In this document: in pieces, positions 2,389 to 60,319 of the stretch
How positions within the stretch are numbered: position 1 is the stretch's first letter
Layout: each line of letters opens with the position of its first letter
NCBI GenBank assembly: GCA_035236585.1
Contig: CP141139.1
Span: 50,289,217 to 50,353,216, forward strand
Direction of reading: 5' to 3'
Source: Warburgia ugandensis
Taxonomy: Eukaryota; Streptophyta; Magnoliopsida; Canellales; Canellaceae
Length of the DNA stretch: 64,000 nt
Notes under the pieces: generated by a model
Told to the model about the DNA's origin: nothing
The model's database searches: none
What the model saw: the letters and a program-made list of their open reading frames with translations, nothing else
Position numbers and translations under genes: made by a program

Positions 2389-2842
2389 GATCCATTAAAA
2401 CTTGTGACTAAGAAAAATGATGGCCGGTATGTCAAAGAAAATTTCAAGGGTAACATAATGTGAAAAAGGGAATATCCAAACCATTCCCCACTTTCTCACA
2501 TCAAAATGACCAAAACTAGGAAAAATCACATCAATCGAAGACATTTTCAACCAACAAACAATACCTACAATAGTGCACATTTCTCCAGCAATAATAGATG
2601 TTTTGGGAGCAAAATTTGAGGTAAAATCCCCCATTTCTCTTTAATCTTTCCATGATTTAAGGTTAATAGGTTAGATTTACGTATTTCCTTCAACTTCCCC
2701 AAATTTTACATTGCTGTCATATGGAAACATAGTCAATGACGAATGTAAGATTCTAGCAATGCGATGGCTAGAAATTTGTGATGAGGCCAATGAATAGAAG
2801 CTATATATTTAGGTTCACATCAACCCAATCTAAGCACCTATA
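2389..2842 (+). repeat. LTR segment shared with 27805-28255
   Basis: Starting at ccattaaaact, this segment can be aligned by eye along its whole length with 27805-28255, with many substitutions and small gaps. Shared blocks include ccattaaaact, aagaaaaatg, cacatcaaaatga, ggaaaaatcaca, ttttgggag, tatttccttcaa and ctatatatt. It is the only long match between the two flanks of element C, and it is read as the same part of the 5' and 3' LTRs. Confidence 0.7.
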
Positions 2843-4786
2843 TCAATGGATCTTCAATCGAAGATCATCCAGCCATTGAAATTCTAACCCCAATGCAATG
2901 CGCAAATGTGAATGTTAGATTTAATAAATCTAACCCTTCAAAACTAAATCAAATCATTGATTCATACTTATGAACATTGATTCACACTATAGTAGTCCCT
3001 AATTACACACATCAATGATTTTGGAGCATGCAATGATCTAAACTATTGATCAAAGCCTAACAGTGTGGATTTGCATGGTCGATAAACCAATTATGGTTAT
3101 TTTATTAATATATAATGGAAATTATAAATCCGTGAACCTGATCTATGATCAAATCAATGGATAGGCACTTTTCAAACCCTTTGTACATTGATCTTTAGCT
3201 AAAAGAGCCCAATCCATGGAAATCTGATTCTCCATTAGTGAATATGTCACCAGAGTAATGAGAATTGAAAACCACTAGCATAACAGTTAGGAAAATAGAC
3301 TTCTTTTCTAATTATTGATTCATGATTCAAAATTTGGAATATCAACATGTTGTTTATGTTAATTAATAAATCAAGCTAAGGGAGGGACCTGAGTGAGCTG
3401 AGAACAATGCTAAAAGAGGTAGGTAGTTTTAACATCAATGTCCTTTTCATAAAATGTAAAAAATGTGAAAAACTATTTCATTATGTTTGAAATATTGTGT
3501 TGATTTATTTTGAAATAAGTGATATGTGTTTTAAAAAAACCTCAAGTGCATGGCTCCAATGTAATATAGATTGTACAAGTTTGGGTAGATCCACAAAGAC
3601 TTTATTAATAAACATATTTAATTAAAGTATATTTTAATCATCTTAACTTAGCCAAATGATTTATTAACTAATGAATCTTAAAAATGCTAGAAATAACAAA
3701 AAGCACATAAAATCTTTAGAAAGTAAATCTAAGCCTAGGGTTTAAAAATCTAATCTTTTATAATTAAGTATTCTTAGGATTACAATCTAAATGTTTACGT
3801 ACACATGCTAATAGACTTTCAATATCACTAAAAACACAAAAAAAATGTCTTTTAAGGCTCTCTTTTTATGTTTTTTAATATTAAATTTTTTTACCTAGTA
3901 ATATAATTACTCAAAGCATTAGCCTATCTTCTTAGGGCATAGGCTATTGAAGATTCTCTTGTATTACTCTCTTTTTACTATACCTAGTATCCTCCTTCAT
4001 GAGCAATTAGTAAAAATCTAATATTAATGTTTATGCACTTTTTAACTTAGAATTATTTAATCTTAATATACCTATTATACACATTTTCATTCTAGTGCTT
4101 AGAGAAACTAATTAATAAACAAGCATAAATAAAACTAAACTATTCTTAACAACTAACATAAGCATCTAAAGAACAAAATCATACAAGAAACATGAACTTA
4201 AGCATGGAAAGAGACTTTATTTCACTAACTTGCATGGAAACATAGAAGATTACAAATAAACAATTAAACAAAAGCAAATAAGAAAAACTATGGATTAGAA
4301 GAATATTGCCCAAGTATTCCTTGATGTCACTCAAAAGAATTTCTCAGCCAACTTCATTGGCCAACACACTAGCTCCGTGCTTTCCCATTGTCCACTTATG
4401 ACATAACCTTGATGCGTCACTCAACTAAGGTTAGGGATCATCCACCACTCAAACCACTAGCCTAAGTAATGATCTCAACACATAGTTTTCATCTAAGGGT
4501 AAATATGAAGGATGGCTAAGAAGATGAAGGATGGTTGTATGAAGGAGATGAGGATAGGGATATGCTTTGGATTAAAAAAAATGGACCCTTGTGGATTGGG
4601 TTGAATAAGAAAATGGAAAGTCATAGTGGAAAGGCTTGGTGTGTTGACTCAAGGTAGTGAAGAGAAAGTGCGTTGGAATGTTAAATAAGAAGGAATCATG
4701 TATGGTTGAAGAGGGCATTTGAGTTATGGTGAAGAGATGGGGAAAATATAAGAAGATGATGCATTGAAGATGGGAAAGGGAGAAAG

Positions 4787-4970: not shown

Positions 4971-5764
4971 ATAGGAGAGAGATGTGATGCGTTAATGAAA
5001 GATGGGAGAGAAATATAAGTGGGGGATGGCTTGGATGAAAGGATTATTGACATCTTACCTTGGAGTGCTTCTCTCCTAATGGGATGTTACATGTACTCTT
5101 CAAGGATAGAGGATCTCCTTCAAAAGTTCTCTATACTTCTCTCTCTTATGTGTTGAAGACCAATTAGGCAGAAGTGGAGAGTTAAGCCTCCTCTAAATCA
5201 CGTGAAACATCCTTATCTTATGTTGTTTTAAATGATGGGAGGAAGGTGGAAGTTTCCTATTGGAAATCATCCTTATCTTTCTTCTCGCCATCCCTTATCT
5301 CTTCTCTCCCTTGTCCCATATAAGAATCTTCTCTTAAGCAAAAATCATGGATTATCCCTTTCAATTCAATGCTTGGATCTCTTCTTAATAAAAATGTGAT
5401 TCTCACAATTTAGACTATATCATGGAATGGTGGCTAGGGTTTTTATATTTTCTCTACCTTATCTCTCAACCTTTGGATCATATTTCAACCTTAACATTGT
5501 GTGGTTAAGACCTCTTTGAAGTCTCCCACTAAAAGGATGTTATTTAATGCTTCGCTTCTTCTCGTCCATCAGATCAGTATGCCCTAAGCTGAACAGCTAG
5601 GATTCTATTGAAAATTTTCTATCCAAACTAATTTTCCTCATTTATTCTCTCCTTGGATGATTATTTTTATCTTTGACCAATCATATTTAAGAGAAGAACA
5701 TGTTTTCACCTAAGGGGAACATGTATTCTCCTTCTTGAAGAATAGTAGGCAGCCCACTAAAATT

Positions 5765-5980
5765 TTCTCCACCAATCATGGCTCAGTCTTCTCTCTCATG
5801 CACGGCTTCTTCCCATTTCTCAATTCTAACTCAAATGACTTCTCATTGCTTGCTTTATGATGGTCTTGGATATGGAATGATCTCAGCCATTCATCCTTAA
5901 AACTTTTGGATGAAAACTGACTGTAGATTTTTTGTCTTTTGTCTCTCTCTCCTCTCTCCTTATTTTTCTCCACCAATCAT
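5765..5980. repeat. 15-bp direct repeat flanking 186 bp
   Basis: The 15-mer ttctccaccaatcat occurs at 5765-5779 and exactly again at 5966-5980. The 186 bp between end in a pyrimidine-rich run, as a small poly(A)-type insertion on the minus strand with a target duplication might. A local duplication is equally possible. Confidence 0.4.
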
Positions 5981-7911
5981 ACTAATTCATACATATATTT
6001 CATGTGGAATTAAGTGGGTGCATGATAATTGTATGAAAAATTTGTAGTACATAAGTAGGTTGTCCCCATTCTCAAGTGCAAATTGAGAAAGTGAGGGACT
6101 TAAGTCTCCTAGGGGCCTCGGCTTGAGTGTACTTCACATGCATGCTTCCTTGATGTATATGACTCTTAAGCTTTACTCGAAAGCTCCCCATAGGTATTGA
6201 AATGCATGCATGCATGCATGTGTGAAAGTTCTATCACCTTATCTTTTGGTCATGATGACCTCTTTTGTGTAAATAAGGTTTAGCGATGCTTCTAGGGTTT
6301 CTAATTGTACTGAAAGTGATACCATCACCCGTTCTGCATTCTGAACTTTTGGAGTTTACTAAATTTGGAAGGTGTGCCCAAGTTGATGCTTGAACTCTAG
6401 ATTATCCATCTTGTAGGGTTTGCGATGCCAAAAATACCCTTTTTTATAATTGTACCCTAATCCAACAAAAATATGACACTTAACTAGTGATTTTTATGAT
6501 AAAATAAGGGCTAAAATCTATTAAATATAGAGGTATTCTATGAACTAATTCTATACCTATCAACAAGTCGTGAAAACTTATTATGTTGAACTATGTTAAA
6601 AATGAGTTGATTGCATGGTTTATGAAATGATGAAGATGATATTTATGTTTAAACTCAGCAGACTCAAGCCATGTGAGGGTTGCTTTTATTTGGCAGAATA
6701 GTGCCATGAGATTTATCTTGCACAACTTCATTGATATATGATTTGCAACTATTTTATAAGTTGTAGAGGCATGTGTAGGTGTGTAATTTATATTATGTTA
6801 TGACACTGATGGATGCTGTGCTAGAAGAGTTTGGGGACTGATCATCTTCCCACCGAAAACTTCATATATTTGATACCTAGCTACAATATGAAAGAATTAG
6901 ATGGAGAGACATCATGGGTAGGGTCATGGCATATACACCATGTTTCCCATTCACATGGTGTAGTAGTCTACCCATTCTGGTATGGGCGGGATAGCATCAG
7001 ACACAATGTCGCCTTGTTCGATGCATAAAGGGTCCATTATTTTTTAGATTTGAGACTCGTATGTATATAGTAAGATAGCTCAAGAGGTGTGTGAAACCCT
7101 GGGATTTAGTTAACAATGACTACTCATAACAAATGACATATCGCCAAATTTTGAGTGATTTTTATACTCTAAAGACCTTGAGCAAGAGGCCACTCTGAAG
7201 ATATTATCTTGCATATGTTTTATGAAATATACTAATGTGTTTAAGTATGATTTTATTGCTTCTTATCTATTTAGTATTTGATAATGATTCTACTATACAT
7301 GTGTGGATATACATATGCATGAGATGTTGCATTTAGGAGATATGGTATGATCATGTATAGTGTGTACCCATTACTACTATACAAATAGCATGTGTGGATG
7401 CTTTAAGCTAATGTTAATTGAGATGATTTGGCATGGATTTGCACCGTGGAACTAAAATACAATTTTAGTGTTTTATTGTATTGCTATTTGCTTCCTATTC
7501 TTTAGAACTACATAACAAATGGTTGTGGACATCCTTTCGATTTGCAATTGTGTAAGTTGTTTATTTGATGATAAAACTACCTACAGAAGTGCAAGTTGTT
7601 GAGATCTTGTACTTGTTTACAATATCTCATATTTGAAGAAATATAACAAGGGGAGGAAACAAAAAGATAGAACAAAAAGTTGAGTTGCAAAAGAGGTCAG
7701 AAAAGATAATGTCAAATATGTGTACATACTTGTTGATATTATCCTAGAGTTTTTGCAATTACACTATTAAATTATGACTTTGTCTCTTGGACATGTGGAA
7801 ATGTAATGTTAAACCTTGGATAAGTGACTAAGACTTGAAGGATTCTAGCTAAATTGATTCATTTTACTAAGTGTTTTTGTCTGACTAAACTTTTTATTTT
7901 TAAAACATATA

Positions 7912-9253: not shown

Positions 9254-9670
9254 TGTTTAATTTTGGCTAAAAGACCCCTAGTTTAGCATCTAATTAAACA
9301 ATCTAACTCATTAATTTGGTAATTTTTTGGATAAAATATAAAAATTAGCTCAAATTGACCATCTAACCATAAATTGTCAAAATTAATGGTTAGATGATCA
9401 ATTGAGCTAAGTGGATGCTTAGTGTATGGTTTAGATGACTCTAATCTAGTCTTTGATTTTGCAGATCAACTAAAGGAGGGGTGGATGGGTCAGATTTAAT
9501 TTCAATGGTGCAGATCAGTTTGAAGATCAATAAGCAAGGGATGAAGGGTTCCTAAAAGAAGAAGGTGTCTTAATAGAAGAGGAGTCCTAATTTGGAAGAG
9601 GAGGAAGTTTCCTAATAGGAAACTAAATCTTAAAGGAAAGAGGTGGAGTAGAATTAGGAAGGGAATAACT

Positions 9671-9677
9671 TATAAAG
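9671..9677 (+). promoter_or_regulatory. TATA box of 5' LTR, element A
   Basis: TATAAAG in the context aacttataaagagggg, conserved at the same place in the 3' LTR (22268-22274). Transcription would start about 30 bp downstream and read through the CT tract. Confidence 0.65.
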
Positions 9678-10008
9678 AGGGGAACCATAGGAGTTGGAAA
9701 GGAGGTTCATGGGGAGTTTTTTTTTTTTTTTTACCTCGGGTTGTTTTCATTGTCTTTTACCTTTCATTCAGTCTCTTATTTCCCTCTATCTCTCACATTA
9801 CTTTTTCTCACAGCCTCACCTTTCTTTTGCACTACTCTCCAATTCACCACACCAGGCTTCATTCTACCTCACCACTTTCCCTGCTCTCTTTTTGATCCAG
9901 TGCATAGCCTAGGAGGCGACTTTCAGAACCGTGCAACGGCACCATTCTTTCATCACCATACCTCATCTCCTTCATTGTTTCCTTCACTCCATTGCATCCT
10001 CCATTTTG

Positions 10009-10118
<110 letters not shown>

Positions 10119-11304
10119 GTTTGAACAGCAAAACTTAGACGTCCAGCTCCACCCTCCACCAGTCGCATGCCCAGACTAAGGTCCAACTCTAGCCCTCCAC
10201 CGATCTTTCCCAGATCGTTTCCCTCTCCCCTATCCTCCATCTTCACTGCCCATCATCCCTCTTCTACCCACCACGCTCTAGCACTCCCTCAGCCCTGCCT
10301 TCATCGCACCTCCTTTTCCACGAGCTAGGAGCTCCCTCATCACCGCCTGCACCAGACGACTTTCCTAGCCGCACCTTTCCACCGGTTTAGCATAGCCCAG
10401 ATTGTCCTAGTCGAAGATGCATAGAAGACCTAGATCCTCCAGCTTTACTCTAGACAATCCAGCATCTCTGCAGCACTGGCCGTCTCTGGCATCCCCATCT
10501 TCTCCTGTGGATTTGGAGTTTACGGGAGTTTTAAGGAAGTTTTGGGGAAATTTTTAGTTTTGCCCTTGGAAGAATATTTCAAATTACATTTTATGTCCTG
10601 TTACAGTTACTATTTGCATTTTATGTTATTCTAGTGTTGATTATTTGTATTCTGTGTTATTCCATAGTTAATTCAGGAACTATCTTATCTATTCATGTTT
10701 AACCAAATCAAAGGTTCTGGTTTAACCACGGAAAAACTCTAATTTATTATCTGTTTTAATTAAAAATTTCAATTAAATTTTCTAACATGTTTTTAGGATA
10801 GTTTCCTATGTAAGTGTTGTTCCTGATCTTCAATTTCGGTTCTAAAAATATATCTAAGCCATTAATTCTTAAATTCTTAAATTTGATTAAATCTCTAAAA
10901 ATTTGATGAATCTGACAAATTCATCCGTCAGATCATTAATCCAGGACACTTTGAATATATTGATGGAGTCTGATCAAGGTATGTATACTAGAATTGAAGA
11001 ATTGGATAGTATTTAAGATAGCGAATTAGATTTTTTTTATTTTTTCTAGTTTTAGTTTTAGTTAAGGTTTTGTTGTTGTTTTTTTTCCTATTCTTTCTAG
11101 AATTAGACCTCTAGAATTTCACTGTTAAACTAAAGATGAAATTTGATTTTTTTCTATTAATTTTTGTCAATTAATTTAAAATTTAAATAATTAAATTTTA
11201 TTAAAAACTTCAAAATCTTAAAGCCCATCCCTGTGGGATCAACCCGTACTTGCATTAGCTATACCACAATAGCCCGTGCATTTTTAAAAAATATCAACAA
11301 ATTT

Positions 11305-11322
11305 TGGCGCCATTATCGGGGA
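11305..11322 (+). other. Primer binding site of element A (tRNA-Asp)
   Basis: TGGCGCCATTATCGGGGA, five bases after the LTR end. It differs at two positions from TGGCGCCGTTGCCGGGGA, the complement of the 3' end of plant tRNA-Asp(GTC), which is the primer site of Athila-type elements. Confidence 0.85.
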
Positions 11323-12565: not shown

Positions 12566-13870
12566 ATGGCTGAAGCACCAACAGAGATATAGCACAAAGA
12601 CTATTAGAGATTTTTGTGCGCTGCTCCAACTTAATACCTCATCTTGCATAGCTTTACTTCCCATAATGCTGACCACTTCGAGTTAAAGTCGGGAGTAATT
12701 CAATTATTCCCTACTTTTTATGGTTGAGACTGAGACGACCCATACCTACATATCAAGGAGTCCTTGATATTTGTGCCACATTTAGGTTCTAAAGTTTTTT
12801 GGATGATTTGATTATGCTTAGGTTATTCCCATTCTCACTTAAGGACAAAGCCAAATCATGGCTTAATTCCTTGGAGGTAGGTTCCATAAATAAATGAGAC
12901 CAATTGTCTAAGAAGTTTTTGAACAAGTTCTTCCCTATTCACAAAACAAATGCCCTGTGTCATGAAATTAAAATTTTCCAACAAAGGGATGATGAACAAT
13001 ATTACAAATGTTGGGAATGGTGGGATGAAGAGCTGCAAAAATTTCCTCACCATGGATTTGAGAAATGGCAGCAAGTTCAATACTTCTATGAGGCATTGAC
13101 GCTTGAAAATAGGCAAATGATAGATGCAGCTAGTGGAGGGACCCTCATGTTAAAAGATGAAAGTAAGGCATGGGAATTCTTTCAAACTATAGCCAATAAT
13201 TCTCAGCAATGGGATTATTCAAATAGGAGAGAAAGCACTAACCAGCCCACTAAGAAAGGAGATATCTATGAGATAGGAGTGCATATTGATCTATCCTATA
13301 AGCTCGACTCTGTAGCTAAAAAATTAGGTCGAAGAATGGACAATCTTGAAAATATGTTTCAATCTTTCATGGGTGCTACATTATCCCAAAAACCTCCACA
13401 AGAAGTATGTGCTACTTGTTCTAGTCCATCCCATTTAACCTCAGCTTGTCCATCTAATAAAGTATTCCCTGAATATCTTATAGACTAAGTCTATGCTTTG
13501 AATGCATATCGCCAGCCTAGCAACAACCCATATTCTGAGACCTACAACCTTAGATGGGCTAGGAATCCCAATTCCCTTATCCAAAACTTTCCTCTTAGAA
13601 CTATAGTTCCCCATCAGCTACTGGGCTTTCAACAACCTCTACAACAAAAGAAACCATATTCAGAGGAAAACATCTATACGATGCTGGAAAAAATTGTAAA
13701 AGGTAACGATTACACTAGAAAGGCCTTACAGCAATTGTAAAATGAGAGTAGACAGCTAGCCAATGTCAACTCTCAAGCCATAGCCAAGTTAGAGATGCAA
13801 GTAAGCCAATTATCTGCTAAATTACATAATACAGGAAAGTGTCAATTTCCTAGTCAACCCATCCCTAACC
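12566..13870 (+). pseudogene. gag of element A (Athila-like), broken
   Basis: Likely start at 12566 (ATG GCT GAA). The first 330 bp hold several stops and shifts but still read the capsid text (SGVIQLFPTFYG, FPFSLKDKAKSW). A 194-residue open segment at 12904-13488 covers the capsid C-terminus, from KKFLNKFFP to a zinc knuckle CATCSSPSHLTSAC (spacing C-2-C-4-H-4-C). After a stop an 80-residue segment (13498-13740) and shorter pieces continue to about 13870. The product would be the nucleocapsid and capsid proteins that coat element RNA. It carries at least five in-frame stops, so no full Gag can be made. Its zinc knuckle and flanks resemble gag of element B at 52373-52410. Confidence 0.85.
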
Positions 13871-14268: not shown

Positions 14269-14298
14269 AAAGCCTTCCTCACCATACAGGCGAGCTCT

Positions 14299-14859
14299 TT
14301 GATTCAACACAAGACCCCACCAAAGTTTAGAGACCCAGGATGTCCTACAACCACTTGTATCATTGGAGATCATGTCATAGATAGGGCACTTCTTGACTTA
14401 GGGGCTAGTGTTAACTTGTTGCCAGACTGTTATGATCAACTAAAATTGAGTGAGTTAAAACCAACCACTACCACCCTGCAATTAGCTAATAGATCTATCA
14501 AGATACCTCATGGTTTGGTTGAAGATGTTATGATACAGGTGGATAAGTTTTATTACCCTGTTGATTTCATTGTGCTAAACACCCAATCTATATTTGATGT
14601 TGGTAGTCAAATCCCAATCATCCTTAGAAGTCCATTCTTGGCAACGTCCAACGCCATTATTAACTGTAGGAATGGTGTCATGAAACTCTCATTCAACAAC
14701 ATGAAGGTTAAGCTTAATTCTTATAATGTCAATCAACAACATTTAGACCTCAATGATCCCTGTGATGTCAACTTGATAGAGAGTTTAATTAATGAGATTC
14801 ATTCACCATTGTCCATCTCGGACTCACTAGAGGCTTGTCTGGTGAACTTTAATGGATAA
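14299..14859 (+). pseudogene. Protease domain, forward copy
   Basis: A retropepsin-like aspartic protease. This 186-residue open segment starts shortly after the duplication boundary. The active-site region reads LLDLGASVNLLP, where Athila-type proteases have D-[LST]-G-A-S. A second conserved block is IPIILRSPFLAT, normally ILGRPFLAT, so the G-R pair is changed to R-S here. The reversed copy keeps ILGRPFLA. It would mature the Gag-Pol polyprotein. The open segment ends at a stop at 14857-14859. Confidence 0.85.
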
Positions 14860-14865
14860 TTTGAT

Positions 14866-16520
14866 ATAGACAAGTCTATTAAGGAGGTAAACAATCTTTT
14901 AGATGTTACACCAATCATGGATACCTCTAAGTGGGGTCCTTATGTAGAACCACTCCTACTGTCTAAATCTGTTCCCATACCCTCAATAGAGCAACCACCA
15001 TCTTTGGAGCTAAAACCCTTGCCTGATAACTTGAAATATTCATACTTAGACCCAGATGAAACCTTACCTGTAATAATAGCATTAGATTTAGATAAAGAAC
15101 AGGAGGGTAAGCTTTTAGATGTTCTTAAGGAACATAAAACTGCTCTAGGGTGGACAATAGTAGACATAAAAGGGATAAGTCCAACTGTATGCATGCATAG
15201 GATACATCTAGAAGAAAATGCAAAACCTTCTAGGGAAACTCAAAGGTGACTGAACTCCCACATGAAGGATGTAGTTAAAGATGAAGTCCTAAAGCTTTTA
15301 GATGTTAGCGTCATATACCCTATCTCTGATAGCACTTGGGTCATCCTTGTTCAGGTTGTACATAAGAAATCTGGGGTCACGGTAGTGAAAAAAAATTAGG
15401 ATAACGAGCTAGTCCCCACTCGCATGACCATTGGGTGGAGAGTTTGTATTAACTATCAAAAGTTGAATGTGGTCACAAGGAAAGATCATTTTCCTCTACC
15501 TTTCATTGACAAAATGCTAAAGAGGTTAGCCGGCCATAGCTATTACTATTTTCTGGATGGATATTTCATTTACAACCAAATTCCTACATCACCAGAGAAT
15601 TAGGAGAAGACCACCTTCACCTGCCCTTTTAGAACCTTCGCCTACAGACATATTCCTTTTAGGCTTTGTAACAGTCCAGCTACATTTCAAAGGTGTATGT
15701 TAAGCATTTTCTCAGACATGGTAGAAAGATTCCTTGAGGTGTTTATGGATGACTTCTCAGTATATGGGTCATCATTTGATGAGTGCTTGCACCACTTGAA
15801 GTTAGTCCTTGTAAGGTGTCAGGAGAAGAATCTTGTCTTAAATTGGGAAAAGTGTCATTTTATGCTATGGAGTGGGATAGTATTAGGCCACATAATATCA
15901 CCTAATGGGATAGAAATCGATAAGGTAAAAGTGGATTTAATAGCCAACCTTCTTCCACCAAGGATGGCAAAAGAAATTCGCTCCTTTTTAAGACATGCTA
16001 GATTTTACAAACAATTCATCAAAGATTTTAGCAAAATTGCCAAACCCCTATGTAATTTACTTACAAAGGAGGCCATTATTGACTTTGATGAAGATTGTAA
16101 GAAAGCATTTGAGCGACTTAAGGCCCATTGGAGCTATTTTGGAGTAGTGCATTGATAAACTTTCCCATATGATATATTACACTAGTAAAACACTAAATGA
16201 TGAGCAACTCAACTATTCCACTACTGAGAAAGAGTTGTTAGCTGTAGTGTTTGCTTTGAATAAGTTTAGATCTTACCTGTAGGGTCTAAAGTTATAGTAT
16301 ACTCAAATCACACAGCCTTAAAGTACCTCCTTTTTAAAAAGGATGCAAAACCTATGTTGATCTGTTGGATACTACTACTACAAGAGTTTGACTTAGAAAT
16401 TAGGGACAACAAAGGTTGAGAAAATGTAGTAGCAGATCACTTATCCAGATTAGTAGTGGAGCACACTAGCGATCAAGGGCCTATAACTGAGTCATTCCCA
16501 GATGAATAGTTATTGCATGT
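14866..16520 (+). pseudogene. RT-RNase H, forward copy, broken
   Basis: Reverse transcriptase with the linker region (14917-15249), palm motifs (INYQKLN near 15450, YYYFLDGYF near 15545) and the catalytic FMDDF at about 15744-15756, followed by GHIISPNGIEIDK. There are stops near 15247, 15397, 15601 and 16153. The best open segment is 152 residues (15697-16155). After about 16120 the RNase H N-terminal part with its first catalytic Asp is deleted, and the text resumes with the ASKTLND/QLNYSTTEKELL block near 16180, NVVADHLSRL near 16430 and PHHWTK near 16577. The copy is more decayed than its reversed partner. Confidence 0.88.
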
Positions 16521-16592
16521 TTCCCAGTAACCTTGGTATGGAAATATTGTTAATTATCTTGTTACAGGACAAATGCCTCATCATTGGACCAA

Positions 16593-16634
16593 GTAAAATA
16601 TCTAACCTCAGTTAAAAATATCTTTTTGTCTTGT
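16593..16634 (-). other. 42-bp spacer at the centre of the palindrome
   Basis: Read on the minus strand, this spacer continues the coding text of the reversed copy in frame (after TK, the residues QDKKIFLTEVRYF), which is the normal RNase H-integrase linker of the family. It therefore belongs to the reversed copy, and the fold-back breakpoint is at 16592/16593. It would form the loop of a hairpin RNA. Confidence 0.75.
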
Positions 16635-16699
16635 TTGGTCTAATGATGAGGCATTTGTCCTGTAATAAGATAATTAACAATATCTCCATACCAAGGTAA

Positions 16700-18032
16700 C
16701 TAGGAAACATGCAATAATTGTTCATTTGGGAATGACTCAATTATAGGCCCTTGACCGTTAGTGTGCTCCACCACTAATCTGAACAAGTGATCTGCTACTA
16801 CATTTTCTGAGCCTTTCTTATCCCTAATTTTTATGTCAAACTCTTGTAGTAGTAGTATCCAATGGATCGACCTAGGTTTTACATCCTTTTTAGAAAGGAG
16901 GCACTTTAAGGCTGCATGATTTGAGTATACTATAACTTTAGACCCTAACAGGTAAGATCTAAACTTATTCAAAGCAAACAGTACATCTAACAACTCTTTC
17001 TTAGTAGTGGAATAGTTGAGTTGTGCATCATTTAGTGTTTTACTAGCGTAATATATCACATGGGGAAGTTTATCAATGCGCTGCCCCAAAACAGCTCCAA
17101 TAGGCCTTAAGTTGCTCAAATGCTTTCTTATAATCTTCATCAAAGTCAATAGTGGCCTCCTTTGCAAGTAAATTACATAGGGGCTTGGCAATTTTGTTAA
17201 AATCTTTGATGAATCGTCTGTAAAAGCTAGCATATCCTAAAATGGAGAGAATTTCTTTTACTGTCCTTAGTGGAGGAAGGTTGGATATTAAATCCACTTT
17301 TGCCTTATCAACTTTTATCCCATTAGGTGATATTATGTGGCATAATACTATCCCACTCTGTACCATAAAATGGCACTTTTCCCAATTTAAGACAAGATTC
17401 TTCTCCTGACACCTTACAAGGACTAACTTCAAGTGGTGCAGGCACTCATCAAATGATGACCCAAATACTAAGAAGTCATCCATAAACACCTCAAGGAATC
17501 TTTTTACAATGTCTGAGAAAATGCTTAACATGCACCTTGGAAATGTAGATGGACTATTACAAAGCCCAAAAGGCATACGTCTATAAGCGAAGGTTCCAAA
17601 AGGGCAAGTGAAGGTGGTCTTCTCCTGATCCTCTAGTGCTGTAGGAATTTGGTTGTAATCAAAATATCCATCTAGAAAATAGTAATAGCTATGTTTAGCT
17701 AACCTCTCTAGCATTTGGTCAATGAAAGGTAGAGGAAAATGATCTTTCCTTGTGACTACATTCAACTTTTGATAGTTAATACAAACTCTCCACCCAATGA
17801 TCATGAGGGTGGGGACTAGCTCATTATCCTCATTTTTTACTACTGTAACCCCAGATTTCTTAGGTACAACCTGAACAAGGCTGACCCAAGTACTATTAGA
17901 GATAGGATATATGATGCCAACATCTAAATGCTTTAGGACTTCATCTCTAACCACACCCTTCATGTGGGGGTTCAGTCTCCTTTGAGTTTCCCTAGAAGGT
18001 TTTGCATTTTCTTCTAGATGTATCCTATGCAT
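16700..18032 (-). pseudogene. RT-RNase H, reversed copy, largely open
   Basis: A 319-residue open segment (17073-18032) covers the whole RT palm: HRIHLEENAKPSRE at the start, INYQKLN, FHF/LDGYFDYNQIP, MPFGLCNSPSTF, the catalytic FMDDF (about 17472-17490) and ISPNGIKVDKAK. A 177-residue segment (16700-17233) overlaps it in another frame and covers the connection and RNase H, from [19 protein letters not shown] to [10 protein letters not shown]. The RNase H N-terminal part with the first catalytic Asp is missing at the same junction as in the forward copy. It lies opposite to the element's own transcription, so it is not expressed as protein from the LTR. Confidence 0.88.
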
Positions 18033-18122
18033 GCATACGGTTGGACTTATCCCTTTTATATCTACTATTGTCTACCTTAGAGCAGTTTTATGTTTCTTAA
18101 GAACATCTAAAAGCTTACCCTC

Positions 18123-18938
18123 CTATTCTTTATCTAAATCTGATGCTATTATTACAGGTAAGGTTTCATCTGGGCCTAGGTATGAATATTTCAAGTTATC
18201 AGGCAAGAGTTTTAGGTCCAAAGACAGTGGTTGCTCCATCGATGGTATGGGAACAGATTTAGGTGGTGGGAGTGGTTCCACATAAGGACCACACTTAGAG
18301 GTATTCATGATTGGTGCAACATCTAAAAGATTGTTTACCTCCTTAATAGACTTGTCTATATCAAATTATCCATTAAAGTGCATTAGACAAGCCTCTAGTG
18401 GGTCCGAGATGGATAATGATGAATGAATCTCATTAATTAAATTCTCTATCAAGTTGACATCACAGGGATCATCAAGGTCTAAATGTTGTTGAACAGCATT
18501 AAAATCATTAAGCTTAACCTTCATGTTGCCGAATGAGAGTTTCATTACACCATTCCTATAGTTAATAATGGAGTTGGACATTGCCAAGAATGGACGTCCA
18601 AGGATGACTGGGATTTGACTACCAGGATCGGATATAGGTTGGGTGTTTAGCACAATGAAATCAACAAGGTAGTAAAGTTTATCCACCTGTATTAAGACAT
18701 CTTCAACCAAACCACAAGGTATCTTGACAGATCTATCAGCTAATTGCAGGGTGGTAGTGGTTGCTTTTAAATCACTCAGTTTTAGTTGCTCATAGATAGA
18801 GTTTGGCAACAAGTTAACACTAGCACCTAAGTTAAGAAGTGCCCTATCTATGACATGATCTCCAATGACGCAAGTGATTGTAGGACTTCCTGAGTCTCTA
18901 AACTTTGGTGGGGTCTTGTGTTGAATCAAAGAGCTCAC
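18123..18938 (-). pseudogene. Protease and pro-RT linker, reversed copy
   Basis: Protease open segment of 190 residues at 18366-18938, starting SSLIQHKTPPKF. The active-site region is LLNLGASVNLLP, so the catalytic Asp of the D-[LST]-G-A triad is Asn in this copy. The ILGRPFLAMSNSII block is intact. A 61-residue segment at 18123-18308 is the linker to RT (GPYVEPLPPPKSVPIP). The forward copy has Asp at the active site but a damaged ILGRPF block, so the two copies carry different lesions. Confidence 0.85.
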
Positions 18939-18960
18939 CTGTTCAATGAGGAAGGCTTTA

Positions 18961-20035
18961 CATACCAGATAGTGAACATAATCAAATCACCTCCTTTTGC
19001 ATGATCATGCATGTGGGGGTCATTTCAGCCCTAGAAAGATAGTTGCAAAAATTTTACAGTGTGAATTTTATTGTCTTACCATATTTAAGGATGCACATGC
19101 TTACTACAAAGCATGTTTAAGGTGTCAAAGGTTAGGAAGTTTAAGAAGGAGACATATGATGCCCTTAAACTCAATCCTTGTCATAAAACCTTTTGATGTT
19201 TGGGGCATAGATTTTATGGGACCTTTTCCTAATTCTTTTAGAAATCTATACATCTTAGTGGGAGTGGACTACGTGTCCAAGTGGGTGGAGGCTATACCCT
19301 TCAAAACCAATGAACACAAGGTTGTGGTAAAAATTTTAAACGAAAATATTTTTGCATGGTTTAGTACTCCAAGAGCCATAATAAGTGATGGGGGAAAATA
19401 CTTTCATAATAGGGTGTTTGAGAATTTAATGAAAAAGTATGGTGTCAACCATAGGATAGCTACCCCATACCATCCTCAGACTAGTGGTCAAGTAGAGGTA
19501 TCTAATAGGGAAATAAAGCGGATTTTAAACGTATCCAAATAGGAAAGACTGGTCTCTGAGACTTATTGACACTTTATGGGTTTATCGTACAGCATATAAA
19601 ATGCCTATAGAAATGTCACCCAATCGTTTGGTCTATGGAAAGGCCTGCCACTTACCAGTAGAGTTAGAGCACAAGGCATATTGGGCTATCAAAAAGCTAA
19701 ATTTTGACTTAGATTCTGCTGGAACCCACAGAAAACTCCAACTCAATCAAATGAAGGCTGTACATGATAGACATATTTTAAGAAAATCCTTCATACCAAC
19801 TCAAATAGTCTTACTATATAATTCTAAATTGCATCTATTTCAAGGAAAACTTAGATCTAGATGGACCAGACCTTATATAGTATGCACAATCTATCGTCAT
19901 GGAGCCATCGAGATAGAAAAGGATGGAGAAATCCAAAAGGTCAATGGTCAAAGGTTAAAACCTTTCCTAGAACTGCTTGACCTTGAAATTGACGAGATCC
20001 TTTTAGAGACACCTGAGTATCATGATCCACCTTAG
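18961..20035 (+). pseudogene. Integrase of element A, frameshifted
   Basis: It starts with the linker text [12 protein letters not shown] just after the palindrome. A one-base loss just before the zinc-binding HDHACGGHF (18999-19025) shifts the frame. The 181-residue segment (18997-19542) has the H-H-C-C zinc domain (CLRCQRLG), the catalytic Asp in [10 protein letters not shown], the second in ISDGGKYF and Glu in [11 protein letters not shown], so the DDE triad is present. A second one-base shift near 19534 leads to a 144-residue segment (19601-20035) with the C-terminal part (SPNRLVYGKACHLPVELEHKA). It would insert element DNA. Two frameshifts disable it. There is no duplicate of integrase, so it lies outside the inverted segment. 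Confidence 0.88.
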
Positions 20036-21852: not shown

Positions 21853-22267
21853 TGTTTAATTTTGGCTAAAAGACCCCTAGTTTAGCATTTAATTAGACCA
21901 TCTAACACATTAATTTGGTAATTTTTTGGATAAAATATAAAAAATAGCGCAAATTGACCATCCAATCATAAATTGTCATAATTATCAATTAGATGATCAA
22001 TTGAGCTAAGTGGATGCTTAATGTATGGTTTAGATGACTCTAATCTAGTCTTTGGTTTTGCAGATCAACTAAAGGAGGGGTGGATGGCTCAGATTTAATT
22101 TCAATGGTGCAGATCAGTTTGAAGATCAATAAAGCAAGGGATGAATGGTTCCTAAAAGAAGAAGGTGTCTTAATAGAAGTGGAGTCCTAATTTGGAAGAG
22201 GAGGAAGTTTCCTAATAGGAAACTAAATCTTAAAGGAAAGAGGAGTAGAATTAGCAAGGGAAAAACT

Positions 22268-22274
22268 TATAAAG
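22268..22274 (+). promoter_or_regulatory. TATA box of 3' LTR, element A
   Basis: TATAAAG in the same context as at 9671. Transcripts started here would read into element C sequence downstream of 23919. Confidence 0.55.
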
Positions 22275-22627
22275 AGGGGAACTGTGAGAGTTGGAAAGGA
22301 GGTTTTAGGAGAGTTATGGTTTTTTTTCCTTTGCTTGCTTTTCTATTCTTCCTTAGGTTGTTTTCATTGTGTCTTTTACCATTCATTCAGTCTCTTATTT
22401 CCCTCTATCTCTCACGTTACTTTTTCTTGCAGCCTTACCATTCTTTTGCACTACTCTCCAATTCACCACACTAGGCTTCATTCCACCGCACCACTTTCCC
22501 TGCTTTCTTTTTGATCCAGTGCACAGCCTAGGAGGTGACTTTCAGAACTGTGCAACGGCACCATTCTTTCATCACCATACCCCATCTCCTTCATAGTTTC
22601 CTTCACTCCATTGCATCCTCCATTTTG

Positions 22628-22742
<115 letters not shown>

Positions 22743-23919
22743 ATTTGTTATGATCGTAAAACTCAGATGTCCAGCTCCACCCTCCACTGGTTGAACATGC
22801 AAACCAAGGTGCAACTTCAGCCCTCCATCTGTCTTTCTTAGATCGTTTCCCTCTCCCTTATCCTCCATCTTCACCACCCATCATCCCTCTTTTACCCACC
22901 ATGCTCCAGCACTCCCTCAGCCCTGCCTTCATCGCACCTCCTTTTCCACCAGCCAAGACCTCCCTCATCACCACCCGCACTAGATGACTTCCTGGGCCGC
23001 ACCTTTCCACTAGTTCAGCATAGCCTAGATCGTCCCAGTCGACAACGCACAAAAGACCTAGATCGTCCAGCTCTGCTCTAGACAATCCAACATCTCTGCA
23101 GCACCAGCCATCTCCTACATCCTCATCTTCTCCAATGGATTTGGAGTTTACAAGAGTTTTAAGGAAGTTTTGGGGAAAATTCCAGTTTTGCCCTTGGAAG
23201 AATATTTCAAATTACATTTTCTGTCTTGCTACTTTTACTATTCGCATTTTATGTTATTTTTGTTTTGATTATTCACATTCTATGTTATTCTATAGTTAAT
23301 CCAGGATCTATCTTATCTGTTACTGTTTAACCAAATCAAAGGTTTTGGTTTAACCACGAAAAAACTCTAATTTCTTGTTGGTTTTAATTTAGAATTTCAA
23401 TTAAATTTTCTAACATGTTTTTAGGATAGTTTCTTGTGTAAGTGTTGTTCTTGACCTTCAATTTGGGTTTTAAAAATAGATCTAAGCCATTAATTCTTAA
23501 ATTCTATAATTCGATTAGATCTCTAAAAATTTGATGAATCTAACAAATTCATTCGTCAGATCATTAATCCAAGATAGAATATATTGATGGAGCTTGATCA
23601 AGGTTTATGATACCAGAATTGAAGAATTGGACAGTATTTAAGATAGGGAATTAGAGTTTTCTTATTTTTTTCTAATTTTAGTTTTAGTTAAGGTTTTTTT
23701 TTTTTTCTATTCTTTCTGGAATTAGACCTCTGGAATTTCACTTTTAAACTAAAGATGAGGTCTAATTTCTTTTTGTTAATTATTTTTCAATTAATTTGAA
23801 TTTTAAATAATTAAAATTTATTAAAAACTCCAAAATCTTAAAGTGTGTCCCTGTGGGATCGACTTGTACTTGCATTAGCTATACCACAATAACCCATGCA
23901 CTTGCGAAAAACATTAATA

Positions 23920-24600
23920 ATAGGAGGTACTATTCTAGTAAGATTTGGCCTAGGCTAGGATAGAGGCTACCATAGCAACAGTAGCATTAGTAGAGACCAC
24001 CCTTGCAACGCTACATCTATGGTGACATTGGTCACTTAAAAGGGACTGTCCAAAGAGGCAAGGGATAGGCAAATAGATGGCGGAGATAGGATGGATGTAG
24101 TTTTGCACAACCAGGGGTGGGCTTACACCATTACCTTGGGACAGGCATAGGCATCCAATGCAATCGTTGAAGGTACACTTTTGGTTACAAATATGCATGC
24201 AAAGATTTTGTTTGACCCAAGGTTCATGCATTCTTTCATTTCATGATTGCTTGTGTTATGTGTGGATTTGCCTATGCATGCCTTAGGATTTGGGTTTGAT
24301 GTGATGACTCGAGTGGGAAAATTGATTTAAGCTAGATACTTACTTTAGGACATATGCATTGTAATCATGGGTGAGTCGATGGACACAAACCTTATCATTA
24401 TTAGCATGGTGGATTTTGATATTATCCTGAGGATGGATTAGCTGGCAAAAAATTGAGCAATGATGTATTGTCGGAGCAAGTGATCCCTTTTTATGCATTG
24501 GGAAGATGAGTAGTCTCATTTCAAGGAAGACAAGGATGTGATGGGAGCATGCTTCATTTTAGAATTGAAGATAGCCAAACACACTTGGAAGAGGTCTTAG
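23920..24600 (+). pseudogene. gag end and protease of element C, broken
   Basis: Element C resumes right after element A. The nucleocapsid is no longer legible. From about 24145 one frame reads NAIVEGTLLVTN, then the protease active-site region ILFDPRFMHSFIS (24200-24240), where chromoviruses usually have D-[PST]-G-S-T-H-S-F. Gly is Arg and Ser-Thr are Phe-Met, so catalysis is lost. Further on, DFDIILRMD (24410-24440) is the second conserved block (usually VILGMDWL). Several stops are present. Confidence 0.65.
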
Positions 24601-31459: not shown

Positions 31460-31665
31460 CCTTATCCCAATTAGGGGTTGGCCACATGAATCTTATTCCT
31501 CCAATCCTCTCTATTAAGTACCATGGCTTCATTTAGTCCCAAAGTAAAGTTTTTAAATCTTACCTTATCCCAATTAGGGGTTGGCCACATGAATCTTATT
31601 CCTCCAATCCTCTCTATTAAGTACCATGGCTTCATTTAGTCCCAAAGTTTTTAAATCTCTTCTGA
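31460..31665. repeat. 103-bp tandem duplication in the LINE 1 3' end
   Basis: The block beginning ccttatcccaattagggg at 31460 is repeated starting at 31563 with nearly identical sequence through cccaaagt. It includes the LINE 3' terminus and the last codons, and copy 1 has a 5-base internal insertion near its end. LINE 2 has a single copy. Confidence 0.9.
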
Positions 31666-32192
31666 CCACTTCAATCCATGTTCTTTTGGGCTTTCCCCTT
31701 GACATTTTAGAACCTTCTACTTGCATTGCCTTACTCCTTCTTATTGGTGCCATTTTCGGTCTCCTTTGGACATGTCCAAACCATCCAAGTCTAATCTCCC
31801 TCATCTTGTTATCTATTGTTGCTACCCTTAAGCTTCATCTAATATTTTCATTCCTAATTCTATCCTTTCTTGTCTTGCCACTCATTCATCTCAACATTCT
31901 CATTTCCATGATGCTCATCATATAAACATGATGTTCCTTAGCTTCCCAACACTATGATCCATAGGGCATGGCAAGCTTATGGCTATCCTATAGAATTTTT
32001 CTTCTAGTTTGAGTGGCACCAACCGATCACACAAAACTCTATATGCACATCTCCATTTGTTCCAACCTACTTTGATTCTCTAGGTAACCTTCCTCTCAAT
32101 TTCTCCATTCTAATCATTGATCCTAAGTACTAAAGGTGGTCTTTTACGAGGATGTCTTAGTTATGAATCTTAACTAATATTCCAGTCCTACT
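31574..32192 (-). pseudogene. LINE 1 ORF, C-terminal part
   Basis: A 76-residue segment (31574-31804) reads IRLGWFGHVQRRP, KPKRTWIEVVRRDLK and NREDWRNKIHV, the C-terminal domain of plant RTE-type ORFs. It is nearly parallel to 60020-60230 of LINE 2. Upstream to 32192 the text is present with stops and shifts. It lies on the minus strand, 3' of the RT part, from which it is separated by the solo LTR. Confidence 0.8.
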
Positions 32193-32197
32193 CCCCT

Positions 32198-35036
32198 TGT
32201 AATATCCTAAATTTTTAGTATAAAATAGGAAATTACTAAATAAATCAATTTAAAAATTTATAGATGGAAATTTTTCCTAAAAACTAAGAATTGGAAAGTG
32301 CTCATCGATACGATTCCAACGCCACCAAGAACGCAAAAAACGGAGCTCAAATGAGGGAGTTAAGAGCCGACAAAGTGGAAAGGGCAATTTGGTCATTTGA
32401 CAGAGACGTGTTAGACAGGGGTCCAAATTGATAATGGCACCCCTGTCTTCCACACATCTCTACCAATCTGGCGAAATCACTGAAGAGACGTGGAAAGATA
32501 TGTGTGAGGAAGAGTTTCTCTTCCCCTAGGACTCTAAACCCTATATCTATTCTTCCCCAGGAGCCAAAACACTCCACCTTGAGCGTTCCTCTGAGTTTTT
32601 ACTTAGAACCCTAGCCCTGCAAAGTTTGTACTTTTTTGGCGAGTGGAACCCCGGCAACACTAGCAACCCCAGCCAAGTGCAAGGTAAGCCTTAAAACCCT
32701 ATTTTTTGTATTTATTAAATAGTTAAAATAAGTAGAAAAGCATTTAAAATTTGGAAAAAAAATTGGATTTCCTGGGAACTCTGTGCACTCTACTATTGGA
32801 GCGTGATTTCACGGATGAAACCATGTCCGTTTGAAAATCGCACCGTCCAACTAGTGCACAAGAGACCCAAGAACAAACCCTTTAAATTTAGGAGAGATCC
32901 AACTATTTAAAAAACATGGTTTTTGGAGAAATCAATGCAAAAGGATGATAGAAATGAAACTAGACAAAATTTTGAACAAAATGACTCAAAAACCAAGTGA
33001 TTTGGACACCTGTAGGGTCACCGGAGATGACCGGAAGTCGGTCGTCTTCTCAGGTGCTGGTTTTCATATCGCTGGTGTAAACCAGTGTAAACCGTGCTGC
33101 CCGTGTAACCCAGTGTAAACTGGGTGCCGGTGTAACCCGGTGTAAACCGGGGCCACCGGTGTAACCCAGTATACACTGGGCGCCGGTGTAACCAGGTGTA
33201 AACCAGGGCTGCCAGTGTAAACCAGTGCACGCGCCCAACACCCTATAAATTAATAAATATTAATTTATGAAGTATTTTCACTTAAAATTGATTTTTGGGA
33301 GCTAGAGGAGTCCAAATCACGATCCGAAAGAAGTGTTGTGACCGTATTGATGATGCGGACCTAGATTTAACTTAAAAACTTATAAATGACCACTTTTTAT
33401 TTAGAAATTTTTTAAAATAGTGATGTGACATGTACAGGTGCACTTGAATATACCAGTTAAAGGGAGTTATTAGCAAGCTAATGGTCTCACATTGAAGTAT
33501 ATGACGACAATTAATGTTTTGCCTTGATTTTTAAACCATGTTTAAACATAGCATCATGTATGATTGTGTTTTAAATTGCAATTATTATTTACTGTGGATT
33601 TCATGCGACTTTGAGCACAGTATGATTATTCAAATTGAAATCTTTTATTGAATAAACTTATTTCAAATGCTTTTATAAGCATGATGTTAATTAGTTATAC
33701 TTAAATAGAGACTTATTTATTATTATATATATAGAAAATGCATGGATTTACATGGAAATAAGAATAAGGGCTTATTAGCTAGTCCTTTTATAGGCTAACC
33801 CCAAGATGAGGGGCATGTCTTGGGGAATTCGAGCTATGAGTGCTATTGAGTTTTAGCATATACATATGATTTTTGTGTTTTATTTGATGACGGGTGCTCT
33901 CGCCCGGTGGGCGTCATGCTAGGAGGGATGGGGCCAGCCACCCACCTTCCGAGATTGTGATGTGATGATATTGTGATGTGATAGACACCTGCCCATAGAT
34001 GGCATTCGGTAGGGGTTTGGTAACATGGATAGTCCACACTACCGGTCTGAGCCTTTTCATGGGGACAAACGCTAAGTCTCCCGTTATGGTGTCGACGGAT
34101 AGCGGTGGTGGTTGATACCCATGGAGGGTTGCCACTGTAGCATGATGGCCCATATTCTTATTATATGTGCATGTATGATGAGCATAGTTATGGATGGTAT
34201 GCCTGAGTGTGACGACACTCAAAGGTTGACTACGAGTACTCCTGATCAGGGATGTTAGTGCGATGTGGTGGGACCCATTACCTTAGGGTGCCCTTATTAT
34301 TATTGTATGCTCATTTACATTGATTTATGCCATGTTTTGACTCTGTGAGATGCATGTTTTAGCATATGAAATAAATTGGCATTTATTTGAACATGGCATT
34401 ATGATATCACTATTTTCATAAATGTTAGACTTTTCATCAGAGCTGTTCATTATTTCTTTTATTTATTATATTAATTGTCTATGTACCTACACAAGCAATA
34501 GCTTGCTGAGGCATTGCTTTGTTTTGCAATGCCTTAAATCTCGAGCGCGACACCAGTAAAGGAAAAGCTGTTGAGAAACTGTGAGAGCTGCTGAAGACTA
34601 TTTTTCCTATAGTTTTAGACAGTGATGTGAGTCATTAAAATAGGGTTATCAATTGGATTTTATTATGGATTGCATACTTTATATTTGGATGTGATTTAGA
34701 TGTTTGGATGTATGTTGGACATTTATATGGGATGTTATGATGGATAGACCTTGGGCCATATTATTATTGTGTTTTGGACATTTGTTTGATTTAAAATAAA
34801 GGCGCCGATTTATTTGATGTTGATTGATACGCTTATTGCTTTAAATCTAATTATGTTTTAAATTTTAAGTATGCCATTTTGAGAAAGGAAAAATAACACC
34901 CAGAGTTTTTAAGATATGTTTTAACAACCAGTCAAATAAAACTTTTCTCATGGGATCCCAAATGCTCTTATTTAAAATGCCATTATTGTAAAATAAAAAA
35001 TAAAAAAAATGTGTCTTAAAAATCGGGGGTGTTACA
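32198..35036 (+). mobile_element. Solo LTR of a chromovirus, with 5-bp target duplication
   Basis: It starts TGTAATATCC and ends GTGTTACA. The 5-bp duplication cccct lies at 32193-32197 and 35037-35041. No internal domains, primer site or polypurine tract are present, so it is a solo LTR left by recombination between the two LTRs of an element. The ends match those of element D (GGGTGTTACA at 47111-47120 and TGTAATAT at 61850), so it belongs to the same broad family. It interrupts LINE 1; removing it and one duplication copy restores the LINE reading (CNFSK on one side, VK on the other). A minisatellite lies at 33066-33235. Confidence 0.93.
33066..33235. repeat. Minisatellite with palindromic units, unit about 33 bp
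   Basis: About five units of a ggtgtaaccc-agtgtaaact-ggg pattern. Single units form small hairpins: CCCAGT gtaa ACTGGG (33112-33127), CCCGGT gtaa ACCGGG (about 33138-33152) and CCCAGT with CACTGGG (about 33166-33181). Stem bases change on both sides together between units. The Tyr-Thr-Gly-rich minus-strand frames across it are artefacts. Confidence 0.8.
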
Positions 35037-35041
35037 CCCCT

Positions 35042-35676
35042 TCTTGCTAAAATTGCATTCCATATATTCTCTCTTAGTTTAGATGATTTTAAATCCTTTA
35101 AATTCTAATGCTTCTCTCTCCATAACTCTAGCTTTGTGTTTACGCCCTCCTTTGTCTCATTAAGTAAGAATATATCATCTACAAATAGCATGCACCATGG
35201 AATCTCCCTATGCAAATGTTTTGTTAACTCATCTATAACCAACGTGAAAATGTATGGGCTCAATGCTGATCCTTTGTGCAATCTTACAGTGATGGAAAAG
35301 TCACCGGTCTCACAACTAGTGGTCTTAACATTTTTTATTGCTCCCTCATTTTAATTATATATATATATATATATATACCACAGCGAAATCTCTTTCTTAA
35401 CCAACACCCTCCATATTAACTCTTTAGGGATTCTATTATAAGCTTTCTCTAAGTTGATAAAGAACATGTGGAGGTCTTTCCTCCTCTACCTATATTTCTC
35501 TATCAATTGTCTTAGTAAGAAAATAGCTTCCATTATAGACCTCCTAAGCATGAAACCAAACTGGTTCTTAGATACATTTGGTTCAAGTCGCAACCTCTTC
35601 TCAATCACTCTTTCAAAAAGTTTCATAGTGTGGCTCATAAGCTTGATTCCCCTATAATTAGTGCAGTTCTATATGT
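35042..35676 (-). pseudogene. LINE 1 ORF, reverse transcriptase part
   Basis: Read on the minus strand: NCTNYRGIKLMSHTMKLFE (near 35610-35670), QFGFM, a DLEKAY-like block changed to NLEKAYNRIP, then IPWCMLFVDDIFLLNET (35150-35210) holding the F-x-D-D catalytic box, here FVDD. Stops and shifts occur throughout. The 13-residue block before MLF that LINE 2 has lost is retained here. The N-terminal endonuclease is absent because of 5' truncation at the target duplication. Confidence 0.85.
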
Positions 35677-35695
35677 CTTCTTTATGCTTGTTTAC
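35677..35695. repeat. Target-site duplication of LINE 1, right copy
   Basis: cttctttatgcttgtttac, matching 31405-31422 with one inserted T. Confidence 0.8.
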
Positions 35696-48570: not shown

Positions 48571-48931
48571 GAGGTGTAGGAGGAACATATGCAGTATATT
48601 GAGGAGAATGATGTGGTGCGTGATTATAGGAATGTGTTCCCTAATGAGTTGCTCAGGTTGCCACTCGGGAGGGAGATGGAGTTCACCATTGAGATGTTGC
48701 CTGAAGCGACTCCTACCTTCAAGGCTCCTTATCTCATGGTTTCATTGGAAATAAAGGAGCTAAAGGTGTAATTGCAAGAGCTACTAGATCAAGGCTTCAT
48801 ACGTCCTAGTGTTTTGTTGTGGAGAGTACCAAACTTGTTTATCAGGAAGAAGATGGCTCACTATGGTTACGTGTGGACTACAGGCCATTGAGCGGGGTCA
48901 CAATGAAGAATAAGTACCCACAACTATTAAG
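48571..48931 (+). pseudogene. RT of element D, N-terminal part
   Basis: A 60-residue open segment at 48589-48771 (VVRDYRNVFPNELLRLP, MEFTIEMLPEATP, KAPYLMVSLEIKELKV) is followed across a stop by LQELLDQGFIRPS, then a frame change and KNKYPQL (about 48905-48925). There the sequence is cut by the LTR of element B. The missing part of the RT, beginning with a LFDQL block, resumes at 55991. Confidence 0.85.
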
Positions 48932-50024: not shown

Positions 50025-50030
50025 AGTTTT

Positions 50031-50048
50031 TGGCGCCGTTGTCGGGGA
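50031..50048 (+). other. Primer binding site of element B (tRNA-Asp)
   Basis: TGGCGCCGTTGTCGGGGA, one base from the complement of the tRNA-Asp 3' end. It is closer to consensus than the site of element A. Confidence 0.9.
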
Positions 50049-50355
50049 CTTGCAATGGATTTTTTATAAATTTTAATTAAAAATCCAAAAAAATAAAAAA
50101 AAAATTAAGAAATGCATTTTAGGCATTCTTAGGTGCATCTTTAGTCATTTTTAGTGCATAACCACTTTATTTCCTGAATTCGCTACTAATTATTATTTTT
50201 CTTTTTTAGGAAATTGGAATGGAGCTTTATCAATTAAATAGATTTTTCTTGCTTTCCTAGATTAGGAATTTTATTTTTGAGTGAATCTTGTAGTGAGGGC
50301 CCTTTGTAATTTGCATTTTTAATTTTAATTTTTAAAGGGTTGTAATAATACAGGG

Positions 50356-50384
50356 CAAGTGTGGGATAAGGTGGCCCACACTTG
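50356..50384 (+). other. Conserved leader stem-loop of element B
   Basis: CAAGTGTGGG, loop ataaggtgg, CCCACACTTG. The stem is identical to that at 11685-11713 in element A; the loop differs at one position. Confidence 0.7.
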
Positions 50385-51135: not shown

Positions 51136-51277
<142 letters not shown>

Positions 51278-51306
51278 AAAAGAAAAGACATGATCAGTTG
51301 CATCTA

Positions 51307-60183: not shown

Positions 60184-60255
60184 TGAAGCCATGATATTTA
60201 ACAGAGTGGAATGGAGGAATAAGATTCATGTGGCCGACCCCTAATTGGGATAAGG

Positions 60256-60258
60256 TCT

Positions 60259-60289
<31 letters not shown>

Positions 60290-60319
60290 GGTGGTGGTGG
60301 TGGTGGTGGTGGTGGTGAT
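60256..60319 (+). repeat. Trinucleotide tail of LINE 2
   Basis: Four GAT units followed by about 14 GGT units and gat. It directly follows ggataaggtctt, the LINE 3' end, and directly precedes the target duplication. Confidence 0.92.

Follow-up and report, generated by a model that had tools for sequence, protein, structure and literature searches.

How does a retrotransposon come to carry a second, inverted copy of part of its own coding region, and does such a structure act on the family to which the element belongs? The question is raised by a stretch of 64,000 nucleotides of Warburgia ugandensis (assembly GCA_035236585.1, contig CP141139.1, positions 50,289,217 to 50,353,216 of the forward strand; hereafter the window), in which comparison with its own reverse complement by self-BLAST gives a palindromic match over positions 14269-18959. 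The original prediction had placed here an inverted duplication of the protease, reverse transcriptase (RT) and RNase H block (pro-RT-RH), with arms at 14269-16592 and 16635-18959, and both self-BLAST and alignment of the arms gave the same coordinates. The host is a dead Ty3/gypsy long terminal repeat (LTR) retrotransposon with a self-derived inverted duplication, found at one locus. The duplication would have originated, with a probability of about 80% judging from the sequence, in one microhomology-templated event at the DNA level, which took place at this locus, probably after insertion of the element, and pasted its own pro-RT-RH in inverted orientation.

The repeat and its junctions are composed as follows:
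14269..16592, plus strand: arm 1, with protease, RT and RNase H remnants in their usual place (self-BLAST, alignment and Pfam).
16589..16592, no strand assigned: inner-junction microhomology CCAA, 4 bp, common to both joined sequences (relatives' connector and junction matches).
16593..16634, minus strand: so-called spacer, 42 bp of the RNase H-integrase connector, reversed and contiguous with arm 2 (minus-strand reading and relatives).
16635..18959, minus strand: arm 2, the inverted pro-RT-RH copy (self-BLAST, alignment and Pfam).
18959..18960, no strand assigned: outer junction, where the end of arm 2 meets connector and integrase (one genome place at up to 3 mismatches).

The aligned arms comprise 2321 sites with 204 differences (8.79%), namely 155 transitions and 49 transversions, and three gap events. 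The 42 bp between them had been taken for a spacer; its length and position hold, but it is not a separate sequence, since on the minus strand 16593-16634 extends arm 2 in frame beyond the end of arm 1. For comparison with other copies of the family the assembly (1.12 Gb, 14 contigs) was searched with 601 bp over the repeat centre. Of 4221 candidates 40 were scored, namely the locus itself and 39 relatives (L014-L052), the latter being best matches to the query and not a random sample, and 6.2 kb were fetched around each relative. In the family copies the same 42-nt stretch lies directly 3' of the arm; a further 54 nt of connector separate it from the sequence that resumes here at 18960/18961. 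A foreign origin of the spacer was rejected on these grounds. The 42 bp carry arm 2 on into the RNase H-integrase connector, so that what was inverted forms a single uninterrupted copy of 2367 bp. The element thus runs from gag through pro-RT-RH to a point X, turns into an inverted copy from X plus 42 nt back to the protease start, and is found again 54 nt past X plus 42 nt, these 54 nt of connector being missing.

The four bases CCAA that end arm 1 also precede the reversed connector in the relatives, with TTTTACTTGG in 32 of 39. When the genome was searched with the inner-junction pattern, its own place was exact and three others had 3 mismatches, all three being ordinary copies within the 3-kb pieces fetched; the outer-junction pattern has a single place at up to 3 mismatches. 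No second rearranged place was found in the assembly by these junction-pattern searches, and a spreading lineage carrying the inverted repeat was rejected for this reason. Ordinary copies resemble arm 2 at 83-90% identity in the main part and 89-93% in the last 0.5 kb (first 20 relatives), those that were read have the same connector as here, and within the fetched pieces a close inverted arm is found in 0 of 39.

Two relatives show arrangements of their own. L016, the only one of the 39 with matches on both strands of its piece, carries at 5546-6104 about 560 bp of the same RT region reversed, at 79-80% identity, about 2.2 kb beyond where the forward arm stops and close to the edge of the piece; this stretch probably belongs to a separate neighbouring element. 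In L021 the last part of the arm region is in part directly duplicated at 2827-3182, with two matches to query positions 2236-2367.

The source of arm 2 is indicated by the ancestry of the arms. In a tree of 41 rows they are sisters with support 100/99, on a stem of 0.013 and with tips of 0.055 and 0.060, and they are sisters again, with the same support, when only the first 20 relatives are used. Both arms lack the same 80 nt of the RNase H part and share a stop:
14857..14859, plus strand: in-frame stop common to both arms (among the 39 relatives 33 have no stop, 1 has a stop and 5 have a gap).
16114..16142, plus strand: scar left in arm 1 by the 80-nt RNase H deletion (relatives and genome search).
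17086..17114, minus strand: the same deletion scar, in arm 2 (genome search, which returned it nowhere but here and in arm 1).

A genome search allowing up to 3 mismatches returned the scar at exactly two places, one in each arm. Of the 39 relatives, 37 retain 76 or more of the 80 deleted columns, the remaining two being short rows that cover about one quarter of the alignment (L020 with 30 of the columns, L043 with none); the deletion as a family trait was ruled out by the relatives and the genome search. It might be proposed that arm 2 came from another copy of the family, brought in backwards by insertion or recombination, as the arms, 8.79% apart, stand about as far from each other as arm 2 does from the relatives. 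However, their sister position among 41 rows, the private deletion common to both, a shared stop absent in 33 of the 34 relatives with letters at that place, and the lack of a third-position excess between the arms make this origin scarcely credible, and capture from another family copy was rejected by tree, deletion and codon test. From the tree, the private deletion and the shared stop it follows that arm 2 is a copy of this very element, taken from the same locus as in microhomology-templated inverted duplications.

The codon test just mentioned concerns the arms before the deletion, where the differences fall on the three codon positions as 63/51/49 of 619 each (chi-square p 0.35). Among 243 conserved protein columns from two pieces of the RT region, defined by at least 80% agreement among the 120 relatives listed, 20 are kept by arm 1 only and 22 by arm 2 only, and those changed in both arms show the same residue in 8 cases and different residues in 3. 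Set against the 39 relatives, at columns where agreement reaches 85% or more, the arms share 13 changes (codon positions 5/4/4), and 61 and 58 are private; with 20 relatives instead the figures are 14 common and 60 and 56 private. Both arms have decayed without codon constraint, and to all appearance neutrally, since the duplication. Their exact-match runs fit random scatter (longest 67, null 44-93; 27 runs of at least 21, null 23-34), so that there is no sign of conversion or of selection keeping the duplex, and gene conversion holding the arms alike was rejected.

The same differences bear on whether the structure could be an artefact of assembly, that is, a palindromic read or a misjoin of two opposite copies. 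Rearranged junctions at one place of one assembly are what such an error would produce. An artefact with identical arms is unlikely because 204 sites differ and the hits are biased to certain sequence contexts, CG sites being changed 4.6 times and CHG sites 3.0 times as often as CHH sites, in a spectrum rich in transitions. Moreover, two independent misjoins within one element would be required, the private deletion stands in both arms and the inner junction shows microhomology, which together leave an artefact very improbable.

An inverted self-copy lying beside its source, with a small deletion and microhomology at one junction, is the pattern expected of template switching in repair or replication. 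The present locus combines these traits and was found at a single place in the genome. The course of events may be pictured as follows. A putatively Athila-like Ty3/gypsy element would have inserted and gained private lesions, including the 80-nt RNase H deletion. A microhomology-primed template switch, in break repair or replication (microhomology-mediated break-induced replication, MMBIR; fork stalling and template switching, FoSTeS; or filler synthesis at a break), would then have copied the element's own pro-RT-RH together with the 42 nt of connector in inverted orientation. The end of the copy would have been joined to the integrase side with loss of the 54 nt, after which both arms would have decayed neutrally, leaving the hairpin as a by-product with potential small interfering RNA (siRNA) activity. 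The locus resembles the products of MMBIR/FoSTeS, templated insertions and fold-back inversions in its inverted templated copy beside the source, its small deletion and its 4-bp microhomology at one junction; it differs from the typical microhomology-templated cases in its length of 2.37 kb and in lying in a plant retrotransposon. Papers related to this subject, judging by title and opening lines of the abstract, are PMC2621351, PMC11724301, PMC7467729 and PMC10622511. At the level of titles and opening lines of abstracts no description of an inverted pro-RT-RH inside an LTR element was found in the literature, which is not proof of absence.

The remaining parts of the host element are these:
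9254..11300, plus strand: 5' LTR (self-BLAST against 21853-23920; 210 of 2033 aligned sites differ).
11305..11322, plus strand: putative primer binding site (15 of 18 bases agree with a tRNA-Asp type site, a criterion of the Athila lineage).
12898..13488, plus strand: gag remnant, single copy (Retrotrans_gag, E 0.0023, under the Pfam cut-off).
18960..20035, plus strand: last part of the connector, then integrase (Integrase_H2C2, rve) interrupted by frame breaks, the 54 nt of connector missing ahead of it.
21853..23920, plus strand: 3' LTR (self-BLAST and alignment with the 5' LTR).

The LTR pair was recognised by self-BLAST of the window, and between the LTRs gag and integrase occur once each, as had been predicted. 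Two LTRs and the order protease-RT-RNase H-integrase place the element in Ty3/gypsy. Pfam matches above the cut-offs are RVT_1, RT_RNaseH, rve and Integrase_H2C2, those to gag and protease lying under the curated cut-offs; RVT_1 is found in both arms and RT_RNaseH in arm 2, whose RNase H alone was scanned. The best solved-structure matches of the arm-2 RT are 4ol8, named only as reverse transcriptase/ribonuclease H, and 7q5b, the Ty3-G Gag-Pol, which matches the element's RT with E 8.6e-41.

Several observations weigh against a single templated event at the DNA level after insertion. The analysis is based on a single assembly. At the outer junction, compared with the relatives, one base matches neither side cleanly and there is no clear microhomology, unlike in typical microhomology-templated cases. 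Over the whole arm the differences fall on the codon positions as 84/61/59, a borderline first-position excess (p 0.059), and in the target-site duplication only 3 of 5 bases agree by eye, a poor match. The 42 bp are oriented as arm 2 and not as the original arm, which is not what a simple fold-back hairpin would give: a single-stranded DNA hairpin keeping the original arm does not suffice when the connector is reversed, and simple fold-back inversion was rejected on this account, although a later flip by recombination between the arms may reconcile fold-back with the orientation of the loop. The age of the duplication relative to the insertion is also less firm than the raw divergences suggest. 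The LTRs differ at 10.33% of sites (210/2033) and the arms at 8.79%, the arms not being apparently older; once a CT repeat is left out, 209 differences remain in 1932 LTR sites (Fisher p 0.029, sites treated as independent). A block bootstrap of the LTR-arm difference runs from -0.7 to 3.6 points, with 9.6% of the resamples at or below zero, and the LTR divergence is uneven, with 51 differences in 754 sites before the CT repeat and 158 in 1178 after it (p 3e-6), perhaps because of conversion or of a different base context. As the interval spans zero and the LTRs are uneven, the age difference is insecure, which leaves room for the repeat to have formed during the element's final reverse transcription.

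In that case template switches within the virus-like particle would have produced the repeat, and the element would have inserted already rearranged. The divergences of arms and LTRs, not clearly different, agree with this, and microhomology also suits a switch of the polymerase. Nevertheless, the parent would bear the RNase H deletion, whose scar the genome search returned at this locus only, the template polarity would have to switch twice, and the 13 changes common to the arms are not concentrated at third positions. An origin in reverse transcription is hence unlikely. With a length of 0.013, the mean tip being 0.0576, the stem accounts for about 18% of the path leading to the arms; this agrees with a duplication that followed insertion closely, and part of that stem may predate the insertion. 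Divergences and stem share together suggest a duplication about as old as the insertion or somewhat younger. Both the DNA-level mechanism and the timing after insertion are inferred.

Whether the repeat has a function is a separate matter, and a role for it would be no rival to the origin proposed above. The capacity to fold had been put at about 2.3 kb of duplex, and the predicted fold bears this out: for the RNA of 14269-18959 the minimum free energy is -3646 kcal/mol, with 2187 of the 2324 arm-1 bases paired in register, and 2190 of the 2321 aligned sites (94%) are pairable when G-U is allowed. From this capacity it had been proposed that the locus is a natural silencer of its family like Mu killer of maize, in which a transcript through the arms would form a hairpin, be diced to siRNAs and silence other copies in trans. 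The predicted hairpin and the 27 exact duplex runs of at least 21 nt are compatible with such a role. The arms have 332 21-mers in common, and 287 of these are also found in one or more of the 39 relatives, so that siRNAs could match the family. As a precedent, Mu killer is reported as a single-locus partial inverted duplication of the MuDR coding region (mudrA), with a centre that could not be sequenced and a fold-back RNA possible in principle (PMC3440606), and the same source questions the hairpin model itself.

The other data do not support a silencing role. The duplex runs, as in random scatter, show no upkeep by conversion or selection. Arm 21-mers are found in the relatives at 1135 of 2304 and 1165 of 2305 (49-51%), no better than those of an ordinary copy (median 56%, range 30-72%). 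CHH transitions affect 97 of 792 arm sites as against 84 of 636 LTR sites, with no added CHH decay in the arms; the corresponding figures are 20/36 and 24/53 for CG and 38/104 and 43/114 for CHG. Finally, the terminal branch is shorter than the arms' mean of 0.0576 in 16 of the 39 relatives, with z scores of 3.8 for L026, 2.9 for L020 (691 sites), 2.0 for L017 and below 2 for the other 13. If equal rates are assumed, at least one copy therefore seems to have inserted after the repeat was formed, and this apparent continuation of insertion speaks weakly against silencing. A family silencer of the Mu killer kind is thus quite improbable here, and the hairpin would be a by-product with siRNA activity only as a potential. 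A bolder version, a Mu killer-like locus inside an LTR retrotransposon that formed near the family's burst, helped to end it through hairpin siRNAs fitting the pro-RT-RH of many relatives and faded with decay of the arms, would be a long shot.

The likeness to Mu killer is in the structure, a transposon rearranged at one locus, part of whose own coding region is duplicated in inverted orientation; further sources for the comparison are PMC2725412 and PMC10760457. The differences are that Mu killer is a DNA transposon and the present locus a Ty3/gypsy LTR element, that here single-copy gag and integrase lie inside two LTRs with arms 8.79% diverged, and that any hairpin transcript, siRNA output or dominant silencing here would be putative. 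The locus illustrates how a candidate hairpin silencer can come about through a single event of templated repair, which probably befell a copy no longer alive and called for no transposition. The tree, the private deletion as a tag and the two diagnostic junctions make this locus datable and testable for siRNA output. If small RNAs do come from it, the Mu killer type of origin would be extended to LTR retrotransposons; if they do not, the locus would warn that such a repeat, however long, may be no more than a scar in an element already dead.

The window contains other elements as well. At 48927-55999 lies a second, younger one, with an LTR pair 96% identical and a gag domain, and the four interior open reading frames (ORFs) scanned have no pol domain. 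A stretch over its LTR end and leader is 79% identical to the main element, and it looks like a non-autonomous, gag-only relative. An ORF of the neighbouring element matches eIF3g under the cut-off (E 5.8e-4); the match is probably gag, since the ORF's relatives bear a gag domain and the preceding ORF matches gag. On the minus strand, 51947-52052, which adjoins the second element's gag ORFs and overlaps them in part, matches Rfam snoR71 at 40.5 bits against a cut-off of 40, which may be chance. Another gypsy-type remnant occupies 57864-61635, with a weak RVT_1 match at 58699-59199 and a Tf2-type SH3 domain at 61300-61632; parts of it have reversed matches of 77-84% identity at 31562-32199 and 35040-35689.

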